A program made the translations under genes and the position numbers. Shown here piece after piece: positions 3,836 through 47,733 of a DNA stretch of 64,000 nt. The notes under the pieces were generated by a model, which did no database searches, was not told the origin of the DNA, and saw only the letters and a program-made list of their open reading frames with translations. Origin of the DNA: an uncultured Anaerolineae bacterium (GTDB taxonomy: Bacteria; Chloroflexota; Anaerolineae; Anaerolineales; Villigracilaceae); NCBI GenBank assembly GCA_903875215.1, contig CAIQVH010000021.1:62001-126000 (forward strand). The letters are read 5' to 3'. Within the stretch, counting starts at the first letter, position 1; each line of letters opens with the position of its first letter.

Positions 3836-4999
3836 ATGACTTTTAATGACAAAATTGATGAATGGATCGCCGAAGCGGAAACCCGCCCCGGCTCGGCGCT
3901 GATGATTCTCAAGCTGATTGCCGGCCGCCTGCGCGACCTGACGGAACGCAACGAGGAACTGCTGGCCGAAAACATCGCCCTGCAGGATGGCTCGCGCGTG
4001 GAGACGTACCAGAAGCGCATCAGTTACCTGGAATACCAGTTGGAACTGCTCAAGCGCCGGCTGGGGGCCGATGATTCTGCGCTGGAAGCGCTTGCGGAGC
4101 AGGAGAAAGCCACCAGCCTGTTGGTGTACAACGCCACGGGGCGGATTTTGCGCCTCGAGGCTGGCGCAGAATCCGCCGGGCCGTTGGGCCGCCTCACAGG
4201 TGAACTCTCTGCGGCGGGCGAACCGCCGCGCCTGCTGGCCCTGCCGGCGCGGGAGGAAGTCCTGCTGTTGTTCACCTCGGGGCGCATCAGCACGCTGCCG
4301 GTCTCCAGCCTGCCGGCTGCGGCCCCCGGCGAAAGCTGGGATTGGGAAGCGGCCCCGGTGCCCGAAGAGCCGCACGCTGGTGAGCAGCTGGCCTGCCTGC
4401 TGCCCCTGGCGCGCCTCTCGCTGGCCGATTTTTTCTTGCAGGCCAGCCGGCGGGGGTTTGTTAAAAAAACCCCGGCCAGCCTCACGCAATCCATCCTGGA
4501 AAATCACTTTTTAGGCCGGGGCACACTCCAAAAAGCCGATCAGGCCTTCGATCTGTTGCTCGGACAGAAAAAAGACCTCCTGGCCCTGGTCAGCGCTGAA
4601 GGGCGGCTGCTGGGATTGGCCAGTGACAACCTGTCTTTTTCTGCCGAGGAACGCCTGCGCCTGGAGCTGACGGATTATGTCATCGCGGCGTGCGCCTTGC
4701 GCCCGGACGATGTGTTGCTCTGCCTGACTCAGACTGGTAAAGTCATTCAGCGCGAGGGGAAAATGCTTGAGCTGGCCAAATCGGCGGCTTCGCGCGGGCA
4801 GGCGTTGATTTCGCCGGCGCGGCTGGAGCAGGGGACGCGCTTCATTGGGGCGGCGGCGGTGCGGGCGCAGGATCGGCTGATCGTGCTGGATGCCGCCGGG
4901 TGGATCTCGCTGCACGGTGCCGGCGAGGCGGCTGCGGCGGGGAATCTCCATGCTGAGGCCGTGATTCTGTCCATGGGCCTGTTGCCCGCCCGGGCGTAG
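3836..4999 (+). CDS. Coiled-coil protein with gyrase-pinwheel-like repeats
   Basis: This is a 387-residue protein with no signal peptide or membrane segment. Residues about 25-80 form a heptad-rich coiled coil (LTERNEELLAEN, RISYLEYQLELLKRRLG). The rest holds at least five short repeats of the form hydrophobic strand-x3-G-[RK]-[IVL]-x-[RQ]: LLVYNATGRILRL, VLLLFTSGRISTL, LLALVSAEGRLLGL, VLLCLTQTGKVIQREG and LIVLDAAGWISLHG. The pattern resembles blades of the GyrA/ParC C-terminal pinwheel, including the blades of gyrA in this window. The gene ends 11 bases before the Hsp70 gene, so the two are probably co-transcribed. A stand-alone DNA-binding or structural propeller is possible; the function is unknown. 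Confidence 0.7.
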   Translation: MTFNDKIDEWIAEAETRPGSALMILKLIAGRLRDLTERNEELLAENIALQDGSRVETYQKRISYLEYQLELLKRRLGADDSALEALAEQEKATSLLVYNATGRILRLEAGAESAGPLGRLTGELSAAGEPPRLLALPAREEVLLLFTSGRISTLPVSSLPAAAPGESWDWEAAPVPEEPHAGEQLACLLPLARLSLADFFLQASRRGFVKKTPASLTQSILENHFLGRGTLQKADQAFDLLLGQKKDLLALVSAEGRLLGLASDNLSFSAEERLRLELTDYVIAACALRPDDVLLCLTQTGKVIQREGKMLELAKSAASRGQALISPARLEQGTRFIGAAAVRAQDRLIVLDAAGWISLHGAGEAAAAGNLHAEAVILSMGLLPARA

Positions 5000-5010
5000 G
5001 AAAAATCCCA

Positions 5011-6345
5011 ATGTCCATAAAAATCGGGCTTGATTTTGGCACCAGTAATTCGGGTGTGGCCATCTACGATGGGCGCCAGGTGAGGCTGCTGCCGATTGAC
5101 CGGCAAAATGTGCTGCCGGAGGTGGTGAAGACGGTCTTGTACATCACCCGCGATGGGCAGTTTTCGATTGGGCAGGATGCGATTGCGCAGTATTACCGCC
5201 ACAATGTCAACCGCCAGCGTCGTTATGTGCGCAAGTGGGCTGGGGAGATTGATGTGATTGGCGCGGATATGCACTTTGTCCGCGATGTGTATGTGATGGT
5301 GGATGAGTTGAAGCCGGGGCGGCTGATGCAGTACCTGAAAACTGCGTTGCGCAAGGATGGTTTTGAGGGGACGCAGGTGTTTGAGCGTTTTTTCCGCCCT
5401 GGCGACCTGGTGCAGGCTTATCTCAGCCTGCTTAAACGCCGCGCCGAGGAATTGCTGGGCGAGCCGATTGACTCGGTGACGCTGGGCCGCCCGGTGAAGT
5501 TTTCTGAAAACCCGGCCCGCGATCGCGCTGCCGAAGAGACGCTGCGCGCCGCCGCGCTGCAGGCCGGTTTCAGGCAGGTGGAGTTTGAACTGGAGCCGAT
5601 CGCCGCGGCGCTGGATTATGAGCAAACCCTGACGCGGCCCGAAAATGTGCTGATCTTCGATTTTGGCGGCGGGACGCTCGATCTGGCGGTGCTGCGTCTC
5701 ACTGGCCCGGGCGGCCAGCGCCAGGTTTATGCCAGCGGTGGGGTGGATGTGGCCGGGAGTGATTTTGACCGCGCGATCATCGAAGCGCGGTTGCTGCCGC
5801 ATTTTGGGCTGGGCAGTGTCAATCACCAGCCGGAGATTTTGGAGATGATCCAGGCGGTGCCCGATTGGATGGCCTTGCCGGAGCTGGCGACGCCGCTTAA
5901 TCGCAATACGCTGGAGAAGGCCATCCGCGCCGGGCTGGCGCCGGTGCGCCTGCGGGCGCTGCAAGCGCTGATCTACAACGACCTGGCGTTCACGTTTTAC
6001 AATCGCGTCGAGGCCGCCAAGATTGCGCTCTCCAGCCAGGGCGCGACCACGCTCAGCCTGGAGGACAGCGGCGTGTCGTTCTGGGAGTTGTACACCCGTC
6101 ACCAGTTTGAGCGGGATATTGCGCGTTATGTCAGCCAGGTGCGGCAGGTGTTGGATGAGACGCTGGCGGCTTCGGGGCTGGAGGCGGGCCAGATTGATGC
6201 CGTCGTCAAGACCGGCGGCTCGTCAAATATTCCGCTGTTCACCGGGCTGTTGGAGCAGGTCTTCGGCGCGGAAAAGGTTAAGGCATCCAACGCCTTCAGC
6301 AGCGTGGCTGCCGGCCTGGCGATTCGGGCCGGGCGGCGCGGTTAA
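5011..6345 (+). CDS. Hsp70-family ATPase, short form without substrate-binding domain
   Basis: This is a 444-residue Hsp70/actin-superfamily protein. Phosphate-1 (GLDFGTSNSG) is at residues 6-15, phosphate-2 (IFDFGGGTLDLAV) near 215 and the adenosine motif (KTGGSSNIPLF) near 400. DnaK is about 630 residues long; this protein ends right after the nucleotide-binding domain, like YegD-type proteins, so it lacks the substrate-binding domain and lid. The start ATG has GGAAAAA upstream. It follows the pinwheel gene by 11 bases and is closed by a terminator at 6368-6398. No DnaJ or GrpE gene is adjacent; the only J domain in this window is at 43952-45427. ATPase activity is likely and the client is unknown. 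Confidence 0.9.
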   Translation: MSIKIGLDFGTSNSGVAIYDGRQVRLLPIDRQNVLPEVVKTVLYITRDGQFSIGQDAIAQYYRHNVNRQRRYVRKWAGEIDVIGADMHFVRDVYVMVDELKPGRLMQYLKTALRKDGFEGTQVFERFFRPGDLVQAYLSLLKRRAEELLGEPIDSVTLGRPVKFSENPARDRAAEETLRAAALQAGFRQVEFELEPIAAALDYEQTLTRPENVLIFDFGGGTLDLAVLRLTGPGGQRQVYASGGVDVAGSDFDRAIIEARLLPHFGLGSVNHQPEILEMIQAVPDWMALPELATPLNRNTLEKAIRAGLAPVRLRALQALIYNDLAFTFYNRVEAAKIALSSQGATTLSLEDSGVSFWELYTRHQFERDIARYVSQVRQVLDETLAASGLEAGQIDAVVKTGGSSNIPLFTGLLEQVFGAEKVKASNAFSSVAAGLAIRAGRRG

Positions 6346-41051: not shown

Positions 41052-41080
41052 TTGTCATCCGTATCAGAATAGACTATAAT
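41052..41080 (+). promoter_or_regulatory. Promoter of the Ser/Thr signalling operon
   Basis: TTGTCA (41052-41057), a 17-base spacer and TATAAT (41075-41080) predict a start near 41087. An ATG at 41083 lies too close to the -10 box to be the start codon. Confidence 0.75.
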
Positions 41081-41124
41081 TTATGTCTTATTATTCTTTA
41101 GGCCTGATTCTAAAAGTAAAGGGT

Positions 41125-43011
41125 ATGGTTACACAACAAGTTCCACCACCGACCAATTCTAATGATCGCCGGACGGATGCCGGCCAGCTTCAATCTGGAA
41201 AAAACCTGGTCAATCGCTATGTGATTCAGGAAGTGATTGGCGTGGGCGGAATGGGCTCGGTGTACCGCGCCCGTGATTTGCACTTCCCGAATGTGGTTAA
41301 GCTGGTGGCGATCAAGGAGATGATCAACCAGGCGCCCGATCCTTTGGTGCGGCAGACGATCGTGCAGAATTTTGAGCGCGAGGCCAATATTCTGGCAACA
41401 CTCAGCCATCCGTCAATTCCGCGCATTTATGATTATTTCACGCTGGATAATCGCTCGTACCTGGTGCTGGAATTTATCAACGGGCGCGACCTGGAAGTTT
41501 TTTTGAGCCAGACCGAGGGTTTCCTTGGCGAGGAGCATGTGCTCGACTGGGCCATTCAATTGTGCGATGTGCTTGTTTTTCTGCATAACCACAAGCCGGA
41601 CCCGATTGTTTTCCGCGATATGAAGCCGTCCAATGTGATGGTGAATCAGTACAATCACATTGTGCTGGTCGATTTTGGGATTGCGAAGCCTTTTCAGACG
41701 GGGCAGAGGGGCACCATGATCGGCACCGAAGGGTACTCGCCACCGGAGCAATATCGCGGCGAGGCGAATGTGCAGGCTGATGTGTATGCGCTGGGGGCTA
41801 CGCTGCATCACCTGTTGACGCGCCGCGATCCGCGCCTGGAGCCGCCTTTTTCGTTTGCAGAACGTCCCATCCGCAAAATTAACCCAGGTGTGTCGGTGGA
41901 GATGGAAGCGGCGATCAATACGGCGTTGCAATACAACGTGGAAGACCGTTTCAAATCGGTGGAAGAATTTAAGCAGGCGCTGATTGCCGCCGGGCAAAAG
42001 ACTGGCTTGTTAAACCGCATTCCGTCCAGGGTGGCCAGCCCCAACCAGGCTCAGGGCATTAAACCCGTCTGGGCCTTTCAGTGCGAAGATGAGGTGCGTG
42101 GAACGCCGCTGGTGTATAACGGGATGGTCTACGCCGGGTGCTACGATAATAACCTGTACGCTGTCAACGCAGCCAGCGGCGCTTTCCAGTGGAAGTATGC
42201 CAGTGAAGGCGGAATCGTCAGCCGCCCGGCAGTGGCAGACGAGATGCTTTTCTTCGGCTCCGAAGATAAAAGGGTGCATGCCATCAGCGCCCGTCAGGGA
42301 AAACTGGCCTGGTTGTACTATACTGAAGGGCCGATTCGGTCTTCCGGGCGGATTGCGGATGGCCACCTGTTCATCGGTTCGGATGACCACCTGCTGCATG
42401 CGATCAATATCAATACCGGGCGCAAGGCCTGGCTGTTCGATACCGGTGACGAAATCCGCTCGACCCCATTTTTAATCAATGAAATGGTCTACTTTGGCAC
42501 CGAGGGCGGTGAGGTGCTGTGCCTGGATTTTCGCGGCACGGTGAAGTGGCGTTTTAAGGCCAAACGGGCGATCACATCTTCGCCCTGGGTGCAGGATAAC
42601 GTGGTGTACGTCAGTTCCATGGATGGTTTTCTGTATGCCCTGGACGCCAAATCTGGCTGGATGTTATGGCGTTTCCGCATGGAAAAGCCTTCCATCGTTT
42701 CGTCCTGTGTGGCAGATATGCTTGTTTTCACCGGCTCGGCCGATGGGCATATTTACGCCGTCGATTCCCGCAATTCCAAGGAGATCTGGCGCTTCAAGAC
42801 GAATCACCAGGTGAACGGTTCACCGGTCATTTACAAAGACGCGCTCTACATTGGCTCCATCGATAATTTCCTGTACTGCCTTGAATACCGCACCGGGCGG
42901 TTGCGTTGGAAATTCGAAACCAAAGGTCCTATCACCGGTACGCCAACAGTCTATGACGATATCGTTTATGTGGGATCCACCGATCATTTTATTTATGCCC
43001 TGCTGGCTTAA
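41125..43011 (+). CDS. Ser/Thr protein kinase with C-terminal PQQ-like beta-propeller
   Basis: This is a 628-residue fusion. The Hanks-type kinase domain (about 30-300) has the Gly loop GVGGMGSVY (39-47), Lys64 in VAIKEM, a catalytic loop with FRD (163-165) in place of HRD, DFG at 183-185 and GTEGYSPPEQY. The C-terminal 315 residues contain eight W-x-[FY] strands at about 40-residue spacing (WAFQC, WKYAS, WLYYT, WLFDT, WRFKA, WRFRM, WRFKT, WKFET), a PQQ-type propeller. Bacterial kinases of this type usually have a membrane helix before the sensor; none is visible, so the propeller is cytoplasmic. It is the first gene of a six-gene operon. Confidence 0.93.
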   Translation: MVTQQVPPPTNSNDRRTDAGQLQSGKNLVNRYVIQEVIGVGGMGSVYRARDLHFPNVVKLVAIKEMINQAPDPLVRQTIVQNFEREANILATLSHPSIPRIYDYFTLDNRSYLVLEFINGRDLEVFLSQTEGFLGEEHVLDWAIQLCDVLVFLHNHKPDPIVFRDMKPSNVMVNQYNHIVLVDFGIAKPFQTGQRGTMIGTEGYSPPEQYRGEANVQADVYALGATLHHLLTRRDPRLEPPFSFAERPIRKINPGVSVEMEAAINTALQYNVEDRFKSVEEFKQALIAAGQKTGLLNRIPSRVASPNQAQGIKPVWAFQCEDEVRGTPLVYNGMVYAGCYDNNLYAVNAASGAFQWKYASEGGIVSRPAVADEMLFFGSEDKRVHAISARQGKLAWLYYTEGPIRSSGRIADGHLFIGSDDHLLHAININTGRKAWLFDTGDEIRSTPFLINEMVYFGTEGGEVLCLDFRGTVKWRFKAKRAITSSPWVQDNVVYVSSMDGFLYALDAKSGWMLWRFRMEKPSIVSSCVADMLVFTGSADGHIYAVDSRNSKEIWRFKTNHQVNGSPVIYKDALYIGSIDNFLYCLEYRTGRLRWKFETKGPITGTPTVYDDIVYVGSTDHFIYALLA

Positions 43012-43041
43012 TCAGGACCAGCACACAAGGAGATGCCTGTG

Positions 43042-43944
43042 ATGGACTTCTTCCGTAAGATTTTTGGCAAACCCAACCCGGTCAAGGGAGCTGAACAGAA
43101 TGTGGTGACGGCACCGCTTTCTGAACTGCAACTGAAATCGATCAAAGCCATGACATTCAACCATTATGAACCGGCCCAATTATTGGTGGCCAGTGCCCAA
43201 TCAGTTGGGCGGCAGCGTGAATTGAACGAAGACAGTCTGTTCGCGATCTCCACCACCATTGCCGGGAATAGCAGCAACCCGCCCTTTGGCCTGTACATCA
43301 TCGCCGATGGGATGGGCGGGCATCAATATGGCGAAGTAGCCAGCAATGTCGCCATCCGCACGATTGCCGGCTATGTGATGAAGAAATTTCACAGCACCCT
43401 TTTTAACCTGCCTTCGCTGCCCATGGATGAATCCATGCAGGAAATTGCCCAGGCGGCGATCATGGAAGCCCAGCGCGCCATCCTGCGCGAGGCCCCCGGC
43501 TCCGGGACGACAGTCACTGCCGCCCTGGTGCTTGGCCAGCAGCTAACCATTTCGCACGTTGGAGACAGCCGCGCCTACCTGTTGTATAACGAGAATCGCA
43601 TCGAAGCCATCACACGCGATCATTCTCTCGTGCGGCGGCTGGAGGAACTTGGTCAGATCACCTCTGCTGAAGCCGCGGTGCATCCCCAGCGCAATGTTCT
43701 GTATCGCGCCCTGGGCCAGGGTGAAAGCCTGGAGCCGGACGTGGTCACCACGCCCTTCCCGGTCGGCGGATATCTGCTCCTGTGCAGCGATGGCCTGTGG
43801 GGCCTGGTCTCGGAAGATGAAATGCGCAAGATCGTTTACGATGCGCCGACCATTCAGCGCGCCTGCCAGAATCTGATTGTCGCCGCCAACAGTGCCGGCG
43901 GCCCAGACAACATCAGTGCCATCCTGGTCCAACTGCTTGCCTGA
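43042..43944 (+). CDS. PP2C-family Ser/Thr phosphatase
   Basis: This 300-residue phosphatase keeps the PP2C metal ligands: NEDS, IADGMGGHQYGEVAS, SHVGDSRAYLL, LLLCSDGLWGLV and GGPDNISAILV. About 50 extra residues precede the catalytic core. It should reverse phosphorylation by the kinase encoded 30 bases upstream. ATG 43042 is nine bases after AAGGAG; an ATG at 43033 directly abuts the ribosome site and is less likely. Confidence 0.93.
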   Translation: MDFFRKIFGKPNPVKGAEQNVVTAPLSELQLKSIKAMTFNHYEPAQLLVASAQSVGRQRELNEDSLFAISTTIAGNSSNPPFGLYIIADGMGGHQYGEVASNVAIRTIAGYVMKKFHSTLFNLPSLPMDESMQEIAQAAIMEAQRAILREAPGSGTTVTAALVLGQQLTISHVGDSRAYLLYNENRIEAITRDHSLVRRLEELGQITSAEAAVHPQRNVLYRALGQGESLEPDVVTTPFPVGGYLLLCSDGLWGLVSEDEMRKIVYDAPTIQRACQNLIVAANSAGGPDNISAILVQLLA

Positions 43945-43951
43945 AGGTGGC

Positions 43952-45427
43952 ATGACAAAGCGTTCCGATTTTTACACCCTGCTGGGCCTGCTCCGTACCG
44001 CAACACAGGAGGAAATTCGGCGCGCTTATCTCAAAGCGGCCAAGCGCCTGCATCCTGATACCAACCAGGCCCCTGGCGAAACCGAACTCTTCCTTGAAGT
44101 CCAGCAGGCCTACCAGGTACTCTCCGATGCAGCCCGGCGCTCGGCATACGATGCCTCCCTGTCAGAAGCCGAAACCGCGCCAGATATCCTTGAACAGCAC
44201 GTCGTATTTAGCCGCCAGAGCCTCCCAGCGCTGAAAGAATCCCAGCTGCTCTATGCCCTGATCAACCTGGCGCCTGGCGCTGCACAAAAAAAAGCCACCG
44301 AAGCCGTCCCCCTCAACCTGTGCCTGGTGCTGGATTGCTCCACTTCGATGAAGGGCGAAAAACTGGACATGGTCAAGGCCACTGCCATCCAGTTGATTCG
44401 CAAGCTCAAGCCGCAGGATATTTTTTCGTTGGTCACGTTCAGCGACCATGCCGAAGTGCTGATTCCCGCCGCCCGGCACGAAAACATCCACAAACTGGAA
44501 ACCGCCACCCAGCACCTGCAAACCGGCGGTGGCACCGAAATCTTCCAGGGGTTGCGCACCGGTTTTGCTGAAGTGCGCCGCTTTGCCAGCCGCAATACGC
44601 TCAGCCACCTGATCCTGCTCACCGATGGCCGCACCTACGGAGACGAAGGACAGTGTTATGAGCTGGCCAAACAGGCCGCCGGGTTAAAAATTGGTATCAG
44701 CGGGCTGGGAATTGGAAGCGGCTGGAATGACATCTTCCTTGACCAACTGGCCCTTACCACCGGCGGAACCTGCATGCACGTTTCTCATCCGCTGGATATC
44801 GAACGCCTGCTGAATGAAAAATTCTCCAACCTCTCCAAAACTTTTGCCGAAAGTGTGACCCTGTCTTTCCAACTACCCTCCGGTGTTAGGCTCAAGGATG
44901 CCTTCCGATTGCACCCCGAAGCCGCCCCACTTGGAGTAGAAAGCCCTCTGCCGCTGGGGCCCATTCTGCAGGATGCCCCGCTCTCCGTTTTGTTCGAATT
45001 CCTGATTCGGCCGTTGGATGAACCCCGGACCACGCTCGAACTTCTGACAGGCTCCTTCGAAGTGACCTCCGCCGCGCTGAAGGCCTCGACTGCCCCGGTA
45101 CCCATCCACCTGACCGTTGCGGTGAGAGACAATCTGCCTTCGGAACCACCCCCGCCCACGCTGGTGCAGGCCCTCTCCAAATTGACACTGTACCGCATGC
45201 AAGAAAAAGCGCGTGCCGAGATTGTCGCCGGTGATTACGCCCGCGCCACCCAGCACTTGCAGCGGATGGCAACCCAGTTATATGCCCAGGGTGAGCGCAA
45301 CCTGGCCCAAACGATCATGCTTGAGGTGGAAAACATTCAAAAAGTTCAAGCCTTCTCTCCGGAAGGCGAAAAACTGATCAAATATGGGACACGGGCTTTG
45401 CTGCTCCCCGGAGACAAATCACCATGA
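43952..45427 (+). CDS. J-domain / von Willebrand factor A fusion protein
   Basis: This 491-residue protein starts with a J domain (about 5-70: DFYTLLGLLRTATQEEIRRA, HPD at 34-36, LSDAARRSAYD), which stimulates Hsp70 ATPases. A VWA domain follows (about 118-290) with an intact MIDAS: Asp128-x-Ser130-x-Ser132, TGGGTEIFQG and LTDGRTYGDE. The C-terminal 200 residues hold a beta-sandwich-like region and a helical tail (LTLYRMQEKARAEIVAGDYA). It starts eight bases after the phosphatase gene, and its stop overlaps the FHA gene (ATGA). J-VWA fusions are unusual; a metal-dependent adaptor that recruits Hsp70 is inference. Confidence 0.9.
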   Translation: MTKRSDFYTLLGLLRTATQEEIRRAYLKAAKRLHPDTNQAPGETELFLEVQQAYQVLSDAARRSAYDASLSEAETAPDILEQHVVFSRQSLPALKESQLLYALINLAPGAAQKKATEAVPLNLCLVLDCSTSMKGEKLDMVKATAIQLIRKLKPQDIFSLVTFSDHAEVLIPAARHENIHKLETATQHLQTGGGTEIFQGLRTGFAEVRRFASRNTLSHLILLTDGRTYGDEGQCYELAKQAAGLKIGISGLGIGSGWNDIFLDQLALTTGGTCMHVSHPLDIERLLNEKFSNLSKTFAESVTLSFQLPSGVRLKDAFRLHPEAAPLGVESPLPLGPILQDAPLSVLFEFLIRPLDEPRTTLELLTGSFEVTSAALKASTAPVPIHLTVAVRDNLPSEPPPPTLVQALSKLTLYRMQEKARAEIVAGDYARATQHLQRMATQLYAQGERNLAQTIMLEVENIQKVQAFSPEGEKLIKYGTRALLLPGDKSP

Positions 45428-45918
45428 TCATTTGTTCGAATTGTAAACACCCCGAAACGGACGGCGCAATTTTTTGCAGCGAATGCGGGCTGGAAATCAA
45501 ACATTCCGGCCTGATCGAAACCCAGCGCTTTCCCCAAAATGTTGAAAAAGGCGGCATCACGCCCGACGAGGAAAAACCCCAGGTCAGCAATCAGGCCTGG
45601 ATCTTTCTGCATTTGCTGGAAAGCGGGCAGATTCTGCCGGTAGCAGACCGCGCCGATTTTACCGTTGGCCGGGTGAGCGATAACCAGCCCATAACTCCCG
45701 ACATTGACCTGACCCGCTTCAAGGCCTTCGATAACGGTGTCTCACGTTTGCATGCCGTCATCCGCAATTTGAATGGCACCATTATCATCATGGACCTTGG
45801 CTCCTCCAACGGGACTTACATTAACGGTACGCGCATTCTGCCCAATATCGAACACCCGATCCGTCATGGCGATGTTGTTGCCCTGGGCAAACTAAAATTT
45901 CAAGTTGTCTTATCCTGA
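45424..45918 (+). CDS. Zinc-ribbon / FHA-domain protein
   Basis: This 164-residue protein has an N-terminal zinc ribbon (Cys4, 7, 18, 21: CSNC, CSEC) and a C-terminal FHA domain (about 65-164) with FTVGRVSDN, VSRLHAVIRN and DLGSSNGTYINGTRI. The GR, SxxH and N residues needed to bind phosphothreonine are present. It is thus the probable reader of marks set by the operon's kinase. Its ATG overlaps the stop of the J-VWA gene. Confidence 0.93.
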   Translation: MIICSNCKHPETDGAIFCSECGLEIKHSGLIETQRFPQNVEKGGITPDEEKPQVSNQAWIFLHLLESGQILPVADRADFTVGRVSDNQPITPDIDLTRFKAFDNGVSRLHAVIRNLNGTIIIMDLGSSNGTYINGTRILPNIEHPIRHGDVVALGKLKFQVVLS

Positions 45919-45927
45919 AGGTGCATC

Positions 45928-46167
45928 ATGCCAACTATCCTAATTCACATTTTGAACGAAGACCCCATTATGGGCGAAGTCGCCGAACTGCCTGCCGCCA
46001 CCGACCAGACCATTCTCGTCAAAAACCCCCGCCGCCGGGATGGGAAGGATCTGCACTACCTGCAAGCCAATGTGACCGATGTCATCTGGCCGCTGGTACG
46101 CATCGCCTTCATTGAAATCATTCCCGGCGAGGAAGAAGAACGCCTCATCGGATTTGTGAGGGAGTAA
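45928..46167 (+). CDS. Small conserved-looking protein of unknown function
   Basis: This 79-residue acidic protein has AAGGTG before its ATG and fits tightly between the FHA gene (nine-base gap) and the response-regulator gene (three-base gap). It has the strands TILIHILNEDPIMGEV, HYLQANVTDVIWPLVRIAFI and a motif PRRRDGKD, and looks like a small beta-barrel. I do not recognise the family. Its placement argues that it is a real component of the signalling unit. Confidence 0.7.
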   Translation: MPTILIHILNEDPIMGEVAELPAATDQTILVKNPRRRDGKDLHYLQANVTDVIWPLVRIAFIEIIPGEEEERLIGFVRE

Positions 46168-46170
46168 CTC

Positions 46171-46896
46171 ATGCCAGAAGAACTCGATCGCCGTCGCATT
46201 CTTGTTGTAGATGATGAAGAGCGCATGGTGCGCTTCATCCGCATGAATCTGGAGCATGATGGATTTCAGGTCAGCGAGGCTTTTAATGGCCGCCAGGCCG
46301 TTCAAAAACTGCGCGATGTTAACCCGGACCTGATCTTGTTGGATGTGATGATGCCTGACCTGGATGGGTTCGAAGTGCTCGAAATGGTGCGCGAGATCAG
46401 CAACGTGCCGGTCATTATGCTGACGGCCAAGGGTGAGGAAGATGACCGGGTGCGCGGACTGGAACTTGGCGCAGACGATTACGTCACTAAACCCTTCAGC
46501 CCGCGTGAACTGGTCAGCCGCGCCCGGGCGGTTTTGCGCCGCACCGAGGGTGCCTCCGGCTCGATGCACGGCCTGATCGAAGTGGATGAGCGCCTGAAAA
46601 TTGACTTTGACCGCCATGAAGTCTGGCTGGAGAGTAAAATCGTCAAACTTCGCCCGACGGAATACCGCCTGCTGTATCATCTGGTGCAAAATGCCGGCTG
46701 GGTGGTTTCACATGACCAGCTGCTGGCCAAAGTGTGGGGCTACGAATATCGCGATGAGCCGCATTATGTACGTTTGTACATCAATTATTTGCGCCAGAAA
46801 TTAGAAAAAGATGCCGCCAACCCGAAATATATCCTGACGGAGCGCGGTGTCGGCTACCGGTTTGTCGATTTTCGCAGGCAAGGCAAAGACGGTTAA
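46171..46896 (+). CDS. OmpR/PhoB-family response regulator
   Basis: This 241-residue regulator has a receiver domain ([11 protein letters not shown]; phospho-acceptor Asp58 in [24 protein letters not shown]) and a winged-helix DNA-binding domain ([49 protein letters not shown]). No histidine kinase gene is adjacent. Its place as last gene of the kinase operon suggests that Ser/Thr signalling feeds into it, by phosphorylation or FHA contact; this is inference. Confidence 0.95.
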
Positions 46897-46971
46897 ACGG
46901 CGCACCGCTTCCAGCGTGAAGAAAATCCTTGCAGGTAGCCTCCCGCATGGTTCCGGTCCCATATCCGGCCC

Positions 46972-47000
46972 TTGCCAATTGGTATTCTGTCGACTATACT
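46972..47000 (+). promoter_or_regulatory. Promoter of the NarL-type regulator gene
   Basis: TTGCCA (46972-46977), a 17-base spacer and TATACT (46995-47000) predict a start near 47007, 27 bases before the ATG. Confidence 0.65.
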
Positions 47001-47033
47001 CTTAATTCGACTTATTCAGGAGAATTTGAATCC

Positions 47034-47693
47034 ATGACCAAACAGCGCATTCTGCTGGTAGATGACCATGAAGTTGTTCGTTTGGGATTAAAAGCCCTGC
47101 TCGAGCGGCATCCCCACTTTGAAGTGGTGGGCGAGGCTGGTTCAGCGCGGGATGCCATTGAACAGGTGGCCACTTTGCAGCCGAATGTTGTGGTGATGGA
47201 TATTCGTTTGCCGGGAACTTCGGGCATTGAAGCCTGCGAGGAAATTGTCCAGCGTTTCCCCGAGACGAAGGTGATCATGCTCACCTCGTACGCCGAAGAT
47301 GAGATGCTCTTTTCTGCCATCCGCGCCGGGGCTTCGGGCTATATCCTGAAACAGATTGGCGGCGAGGATCTGGTGCGCGCATTGGAAGCGGTTGGGCGCG
47401 GCGAGGCACTGCTCGACCCGGCGGTCACCCAGCGCGTCTTCCAGGAAGTGCGCAAGGCCGTCAAGGAGGAAGAGGCTTCGGCCTTTTCACACCTCAGCCA
47501 GCAGGAAAAGCATGTGCTTCTGCTCGTTTCAGAAGGCAAAACCAACCGCGAAATCGCCAAGGCCCTTTTCCTGGGCGAGGGTACGGTGCGTAACTATGTC
47601 AGCAGCATCCTTTCCAAGCTGGGCGTCAACAACCGCGCCGAAGCCGCTGCTTATGCGGTTGAGCATAATCTGAAAGAATACATCCAGGTTTAA
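47034..47693 (+). CDS. NarL/FixJ-family response regulator
   Basis: This 219-residue regulator has a receiver ([17 protein letters not shown]; Asp56 in [23 protein letters not shown]) and a LuxR-type HTH ([40 protein letters not shown]). AGGAGA precedes ATG 47034. It has its own promoter and terminator and no adjacent kinase. The HisKA_3-type GAF kinase at 58674-60344, the class that pairs with NarL-type regulators, is a candidate partner 11 kb away. Confidence 0.95.
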
Positions 47694-47697
47694 CCGG

Positions 47698-47718
47698 CGT
47701 GCGGAACCAATCCGCACG
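47698..47718 (+). terminator. Intrinsic terminator after the NarL-type gene
   Basis: An 8-bp stem (CGTGCGGA and complement, loop ACCAA) is followed by TTTTCTTTTT. Confidence 0.75.
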
Positions 47719-47733
47719 TTTTCTTTTTCTGCC

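Follow-up and report, generated by a model that had tools for sequence, protein, structure and literature searches.

A J domain on an ArnB-like VWA protein in a phospho-signaling gene run of Chloroflexota and its possible link to Hsp70

Why is a J domain attached to a von Willebrand A (VWA) chain? The question was raised by a gene at 43952-45427 (+ strand) of the window, the 64,000-nucleotide stretch of DNA from an uncultured Anaerolineae bacterium that was analyzed in this study. A sequence-only reading of this DNA had proposed that an Hsp70 is brought to a client chosen by the VWA domain, and had pointed to an Hsp70 gene at 5011-6345 in the same window. The gene product, termed J-VWA here, was compared with known folds, neighboring genes, and homologues.

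The J-VWA frame was open over 491 codons, and the opposite strand was interrupted by stops. The ATG at 43952 (after GAAGGTGG) was preferred as the start over the TTG at 43877, because the latter would run into the PP2C gene. Pfam placed DnaJ at residues 6-67 (43967-44152; 1.4e-20, 73.6 bits, cut-off 27.8), with HPD at residues 34-36 (44051-44059), and VWA at residues 122-277 (7e-19, 69.1 bits, cut-off 23.8). The MIDAS was intact, consisting of D128-x-S130-x-S132 (DCSTS), T195, and D225. The AlphaFold2 model, built from a 10-sequence alignment, had a mean pLDDT of 84.6. Its VWA domain was well formed and four J-type helices were present (residues 7-15, 19-33, 43-58, and 60-69), the J domain being less certain than the remaining model (pLDDT mostly 65-79). 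Pfam, motifs, and model agreed, and the 491-residue fusion with intact HPD and MIDAS claimed by the sequence-only reading was confirmed. A chance match to either domain was ruled out by the E-values and by conservation, and a frame fusion or assembly artefact by homologues with co-linear J and VWA domains.

DnaJ and VWA were the only domains above the Pfam cut-off. DnaJ_C was absent, and the layout differed from that of classes A and B. On its sequence, J-VWA is by exclusion a class C J-domain protein with an intact HPD. Beyond these two domains, the model added a beta-sandwich and a C-terminal helical bundle. The beta-sandwich (residues 80-108 and 297-392) was split by the MIDAS-bearing VWA domain (about residues 118-296), the whole spanning 44189-45127, and its fold matched ArnB, 4fx5, and ITIH. 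The helical bundle covered residues 402-482 (45155-45397), with Thr480 at 45389-45391.

This layout, in which a MIDAS-bearing VWA domain interrupts a beta-sandwich and a helical bundle ends the chain, is that of ArnB. The best structural match of the model was 4fx5 (residues 75-487, Z 33.4). ArnB in the ArnA-ArnB co-crystal 8s05 was matched by residues 79-487 (Z 29.1 over 371 residues), and the ArnB paralogue 5a8j by residues 78-486 (Z 24.7). These three matches spanned nearly all of the chain beyond the J domain, while most other matches covered the VWA domain alone. The J-VWA sequence profile reached ArnB at 1.5e-16, inside the VWA part. Membership in Pfam ArnB_C (PF18677) was rejected, as the J-VWA family did not reach the cut-off (E 0.24 in one of ten members); the protein is therefore termed ArnB-like and not a family member. 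The results suggested that the scaffold is an ArnB-like chain extended at its N terminus by a J domain.

The next gene (45424-45918, + strand), whose start overlaps the J-VWA stop by 4 bases, was found by Pfam and profile search to encode a zinc-ribbon and FHA protein. It showed an ArnA-like layout, with an N-terminal Cys4 zinc ribbon and an FHA domain with phosphopeptide-binding residues. The best PDB match of its profile was ArnA (2e-9), to which the FHA stretch contributed about 1e-4 and the zinc-ribbon stretch was weak alone. A structure search with the FHA model placed ArnA at rank 48 among many matches, which is not ArnA-specific, FHA folds being generic.

The archaeal pair provides a frame for this pairing. 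According to two reports (PMC6509490, PMC12852372), the zinc finger of ArnA docks on the beta-sandwich and helical domain of ArnB, the ArnA FHA domain binds phosphothreonines in the C-terminal bundle of ArnB, and the kinase ArnC and the phosphatase PP2A shift the complex between a loose and a tight state. The fold and the neighbors of J-VWA correspond to ArnB with an FHA partner (PMC12852372), which argues against the VWA domain as a client selector.

J-VWA was the third gene of a seven-gene run on the + strand. The first gene (41083-43011) encodes a Ser/Thr kinase with a C-terminal PQQ/BamB-type beta-propeller (Pkinase 1.9e-37, beta-propeller 2.1e-71), an AfsK-like layout without a transmembrane segment by hydropathy. 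Its true start is perhaps Met15 (41125) rather than 41083, because the -10 box of the promoter-like site ends at 41080, too near the first ATG. The second gene (43033-43944) encodes a PP2C Ser/Thr phosphatase (Pfam 1.4e-17; Stp1 family model 4.9e-65, 219 of 230 bits). J-VWA and the FHA protein are followed by an unannotated 79-aa protein (45928-46167), an open frame with homologues 3' of the FHA gene in 70 loci. Two response regulators complete the run. The OmpR-type regulator (46171-46896; domain models) accompanied the cluster at most of the Anaerolineae loci compared, and the NarL-type regulator (46929-47693; Pfam) was present in some relatives only.

The intergenic gaps among the first five genes were 21, 7, -4, and 9 bases. 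A promoter-like site (TTGTCA-17-TATAAT, 11 of 12 positions, 41052-41080) lies 5' of the kinase, and an intrinsic-terminator-like hairpin with a T-rich tail (47696-47720) lies 3' of the second regulator; both are consensus matches only. With these signals at its two ends, the run may be one operon. Hydropathy revealed no transmembrane segment in the kinase, PP2C, J-VWA, or FHA protein, and all four are therefore expected to be cytosolic, as is DnaK. The 79-aa protein had no match in Pfam or NCBIfam. It was also present at J-less loci, with the consensus NpR.RDGK..hYl and Pw.Ri.fiE, and is possibly a small beta-barrel.

A candidate switch site was found in the helical bundle. Thr480 was conserved in all 72 cluster proteins, and R481 and L483 after it in 99%. 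FHA domains commonly read phosphothreonine, with a +3 preference that can be Leu. T480, in the motif T480-R-x-L483, is a candidate phosphothreonine. The model places this residue in a helix, and its conservation may be structural instead.

Co-linear J and VWA chains were detected in 67 of 199 genomes sampled from the class. In the phylum sample, the window's family was represented by 25 genomes, each of which had such a chain. Outside the class, J-bearing versions came from two genomes (L110, L121). A scan of GTDB contigs returned close Anaerolineae/Chloroflexi relatives, one archaeal VWA protein, and nothing else. The order kinase-propeller, PP2C, VWA protein with or without J, FHA protein, and 79-aa protein was near-constant in about 70 Chloroflexota loci. 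An FHA partner was found at 71 of 72 loci, and the Cys4 and SRxH motifs were present in all 71 of these proteins. The sequence-only reading had raised the case of a wide occurrence in unrelated contexts; the fusion is wide-spread, yet in one constant gene context.

Two further groups of VWA genes were noted. Loci L051-L063 hold J-less VWA paralogues in other clusters, alongside multiple kinase genes and PP2C and FHA genes, and represent a broader ArnB-like signaling expansion in Chloroflexota. J-VWA itself was not found on plasmids: the 18 plasmid matches left the J part uncovered, and the two that were inspected sit after MerR regulators. In these two (L130 and L131, about 4960-6220), from Deinococcus and cyanobacterial plasmids, a MerR-family gene lies directly 5' of a VWA protein of 26% identity, which is a different VWA gene pair.

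The genomic setting also bears on a role in defense. Kinase, PP2C, and VWA sets are known from actinobacterial conflict systems (PMC7159879), and the TerY-type trait of a kinase and PP2C beside a VWA gene was found at the J-VWA locus. An anti-phage or toxin-related system akin to such triads was considered on this basis. PADLOC matched a generic kinase and, weakly, the phosphatase, with no match for J-VWA or the FHA protein, and no ter or effector genes were found among the neighbors run through Pfam. Unlike mobile defense systems, the module lies among housekeeping genes (gyrA, radC) and was missing from none of the family's sampled genomes. A defense role is therefore extremely improbable.

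The state of the J domain varied within this constant context. Among the 72 cluster proteins, 51 had a J domain with HPD, 5 had a J domain without HPD (L067, L069, L081, L082, and L101), and 16 had no J domain. The MIDAS was conserved in all alignment rows inspected. Since the MIDAS, the FHA partner, and T480 persist without the J domain, this domain is an optional extra of the module. The J states required about 10 changes on the VWA tree. In family f35, a degenerate and an absent J domain fell within one well-supported group of this tree, which suggests that the J domain decayed and was then lost, the direction not being given by the tree itself. The J-domain tree did not reject a single origin (AU p 0.44, 72 columns), and is consistent with, but cannot prove, one origin for the J domain of J-VWA.

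These losses could mean that J-VWA has only a leftover J domain, or one that serves as a structural spacer and has stopped working with Hsp70, as HPD was lost in five homologues, the J domain is absent in several lineages, and f35 has both forms. However, HPD was retained in 51 of the 56 proteins with a J domain, even at overall identities as low as about 35%, and Y8, L11, A17, F47, A53, and L57 were also invariant among the HPD-bearing set. This retention makes the leftover reading quite unlikely. The HPD-bearing J domain very probably recruits an Hsp70.

The same counts divide the proposal that an Hsp70 is brought to a client chosen by the VWA domain. Its recruitment part agreed with HPD retention, and its client-choice part did not agree with the 16 J-less loci. 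In such a co-chaperone, the VWA MIDAS would bind a client peptide and the J domain would pass the client to Hsp70 for folding. J and HPD are present as this requires, and peptide-binding VWA co-chaperones of MoxR ATPases are established (PMC7159879). On the other side, the same phospho-module contains a J-less form of this VWA chain at some loci, the constant partner genes encode a kinase, a phosphatase, and an FHA protein with no chaperone among them, and no Hsp70 gene is linked. Since loci that lack J still retain the VWA chain together with its partners, a client-selecting co-chaperone was judged very unlikely.

The gene at 5011-6345 (+ strand) was examined as a source of the recruited Hsp70. 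In DnaJ, D35 of HPD contacts R167 of DnaK (PMC8215388). The Hsp70-like protein has Glu at R167 and Leu at N170, and it stops after the ATPase domain, without an interdomain linker or a substrate-binding domain. It scored 175 bits against PRK11678, which we take to be the YegD model, under the cut-off of 331. None of the 14 same-order genomes with the cluster, 13 of which have J, contained the gene, and where J was present (9 of 47) it was not clearly more frequent than where J was missing (5 of 16). Co-occurrence and J-contact residues ruled this protein out as the partner of J-VWA, and the link drawn by the sequence-only reading was not upheld. The YegD-like gene is sporadic in the phylum. 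In three genomes (G181, G067, and G035), it lies inside open frames of about 800 aa, which suggests a fusion with another domain.

The source genome contained one full DnaK (C17, outside the window), one GrpE, and three J domains, namely that of J-VWA and one in each of two frames about as long as a typical DnaJ. J-VWA is therefore the sole J protein besides the two DnaJ-length ones. A search for J domains in 25 genomes gave a like number, two or three, in about half of them. With a single full DnaK and few J proteins, the general DnaK is the likely partner of J-VWA. The J charges that position DnaK were weaker in J-VWA, with Leu27 at DnaJ K26 and a helix II net charge of 0 in many close relatives.

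Taken together, the evidence tips slightly in favor of an ArnAB-like phospho-switch in which the J domain brings DnaK to remodel or reset the scaffold-FHA complex. In this mechanism, the linked kinase would phosphorylate the C-terminal bundle of the scaffold, with T480-R-x-L483 as the candidate site, and the linked PP2C would take the phosphate off. The zinc ribbon of the FHA protein would sit loosely on the scaffold beta-sandwich, and the FHA domain would clamp the scaffold phosphothreonine, as in ArnA-ArnB. The linked response regulators, or other partners, would relay the output. The J domain would draw the general DnaK of the cell to the complex and trigger its ATPase, and DnaK may then open, dissolve, or re-load the complex. 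A precedent is auxilin, a J protein that steers Hsc70 to clathrin (PMC13254874). The module persists at the 21 of 72 loci whose protein has no J domain or a J domain without HPD, so DnaK would be dispensable for the core switch. The broader statement, that a bacterial ArnAB-type switch is wired to Hsp70, with DnaK resetting or gating the complex and so tying folding state to signaling, is offered tentatively, with confidence somewhat short of even.

The main rival to DnaK-driven remodeling is the reverse direction of control, a sensor of chaperone status. Unfolded protein would titrate DnaK, free J-VWA, and shift phosphorylation or FHA binding, so that heat or folding stress is reported to the response regulators. 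DnaK titration controls sigma32, and the same parts suit both directions of control. The low number of J proteins in the genome and the position of J-VWA within a regulatory gene run also favor a sensor. However, some modules have lost J and otherwise persist, which suggests that J is an accessory input and not the main sensor, and the propeller domain of the kinase already offers a likely sensor. The sensor reading is considered unlikely.

The remodeling model can be placed among known systems. The Hsp70-like protein of the window has an Hsp70 ATPase fold of the YegD-like type, but its gene is about 38 kb away and sporadic, and it lacks the J-contact residues of DnaK. TerY-type conflict sets (PMC7159879) share the trio of kinase, phosphatase, and VWA protein; the J-VWA module differs in its ArnB-like VWA and FHA partner, in the lack of ter or effector genes among the tested neighbors, and in the lack of a PADLOC match for J-VWA. 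The class C J proteins DjlA, HscB, and auxilin likewise fuse an HPD-bearing J domain to a specific interaction module, whereas the fused part of J-VWA is an ArnB-like VWA scaffold in a phospho-signaling run, of which no described bacterial example was found. A full-text literature search for J-domain, vWA domain, and DnaK returned no paper, though the main census of bacterial J proteins may mention such a fusion.

The closest counterparts are 4fx5 and the archaeal switch. 4fx5, a VWA protein of Catenulispora acidiphila, shares the fold over J-VWA residues 75-487 and has no J domain in the aligned structure. The accessible part of PMC12852372 mentions 4fx5 and YfbK as bacterial structural relatives and describes no bacterial two-protein system. 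ArnA-ArnB of Sulfolobus acidocaldarius (with ArnC and PP2A; 8s05, 5a8i, 5a8j) shares with the Chloroflexota module the VWA domain, split beta-sandwich, and helical bundle, the zinc-ribbon and FHA partner, and the involvement of a Ser/Thr kinase and a phosphatase. In contrast, the Chloroflexota module is bacterial, has an added J domain, does not reach Pfam ArnB_C, and links a propeller kinase, PP2C, the 79-aa protein, and response regulators in one run. Each component (J domain, ArnB-like VWA protein, FHA partner) is already known, but to our knowledge no switch combining them has been described. Relatives with a working, broken, or absent J domain are available, and the role of Hsp70 in the signaling complex is therefore testable by comparison. 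If the model is true, switches of the ArnA-ArnB type, known from archaeal motility, are also widespread in bacteria, where one gene run includes the kinase and phosphatase, and some lineages have put a direct Hsp70 input on them.
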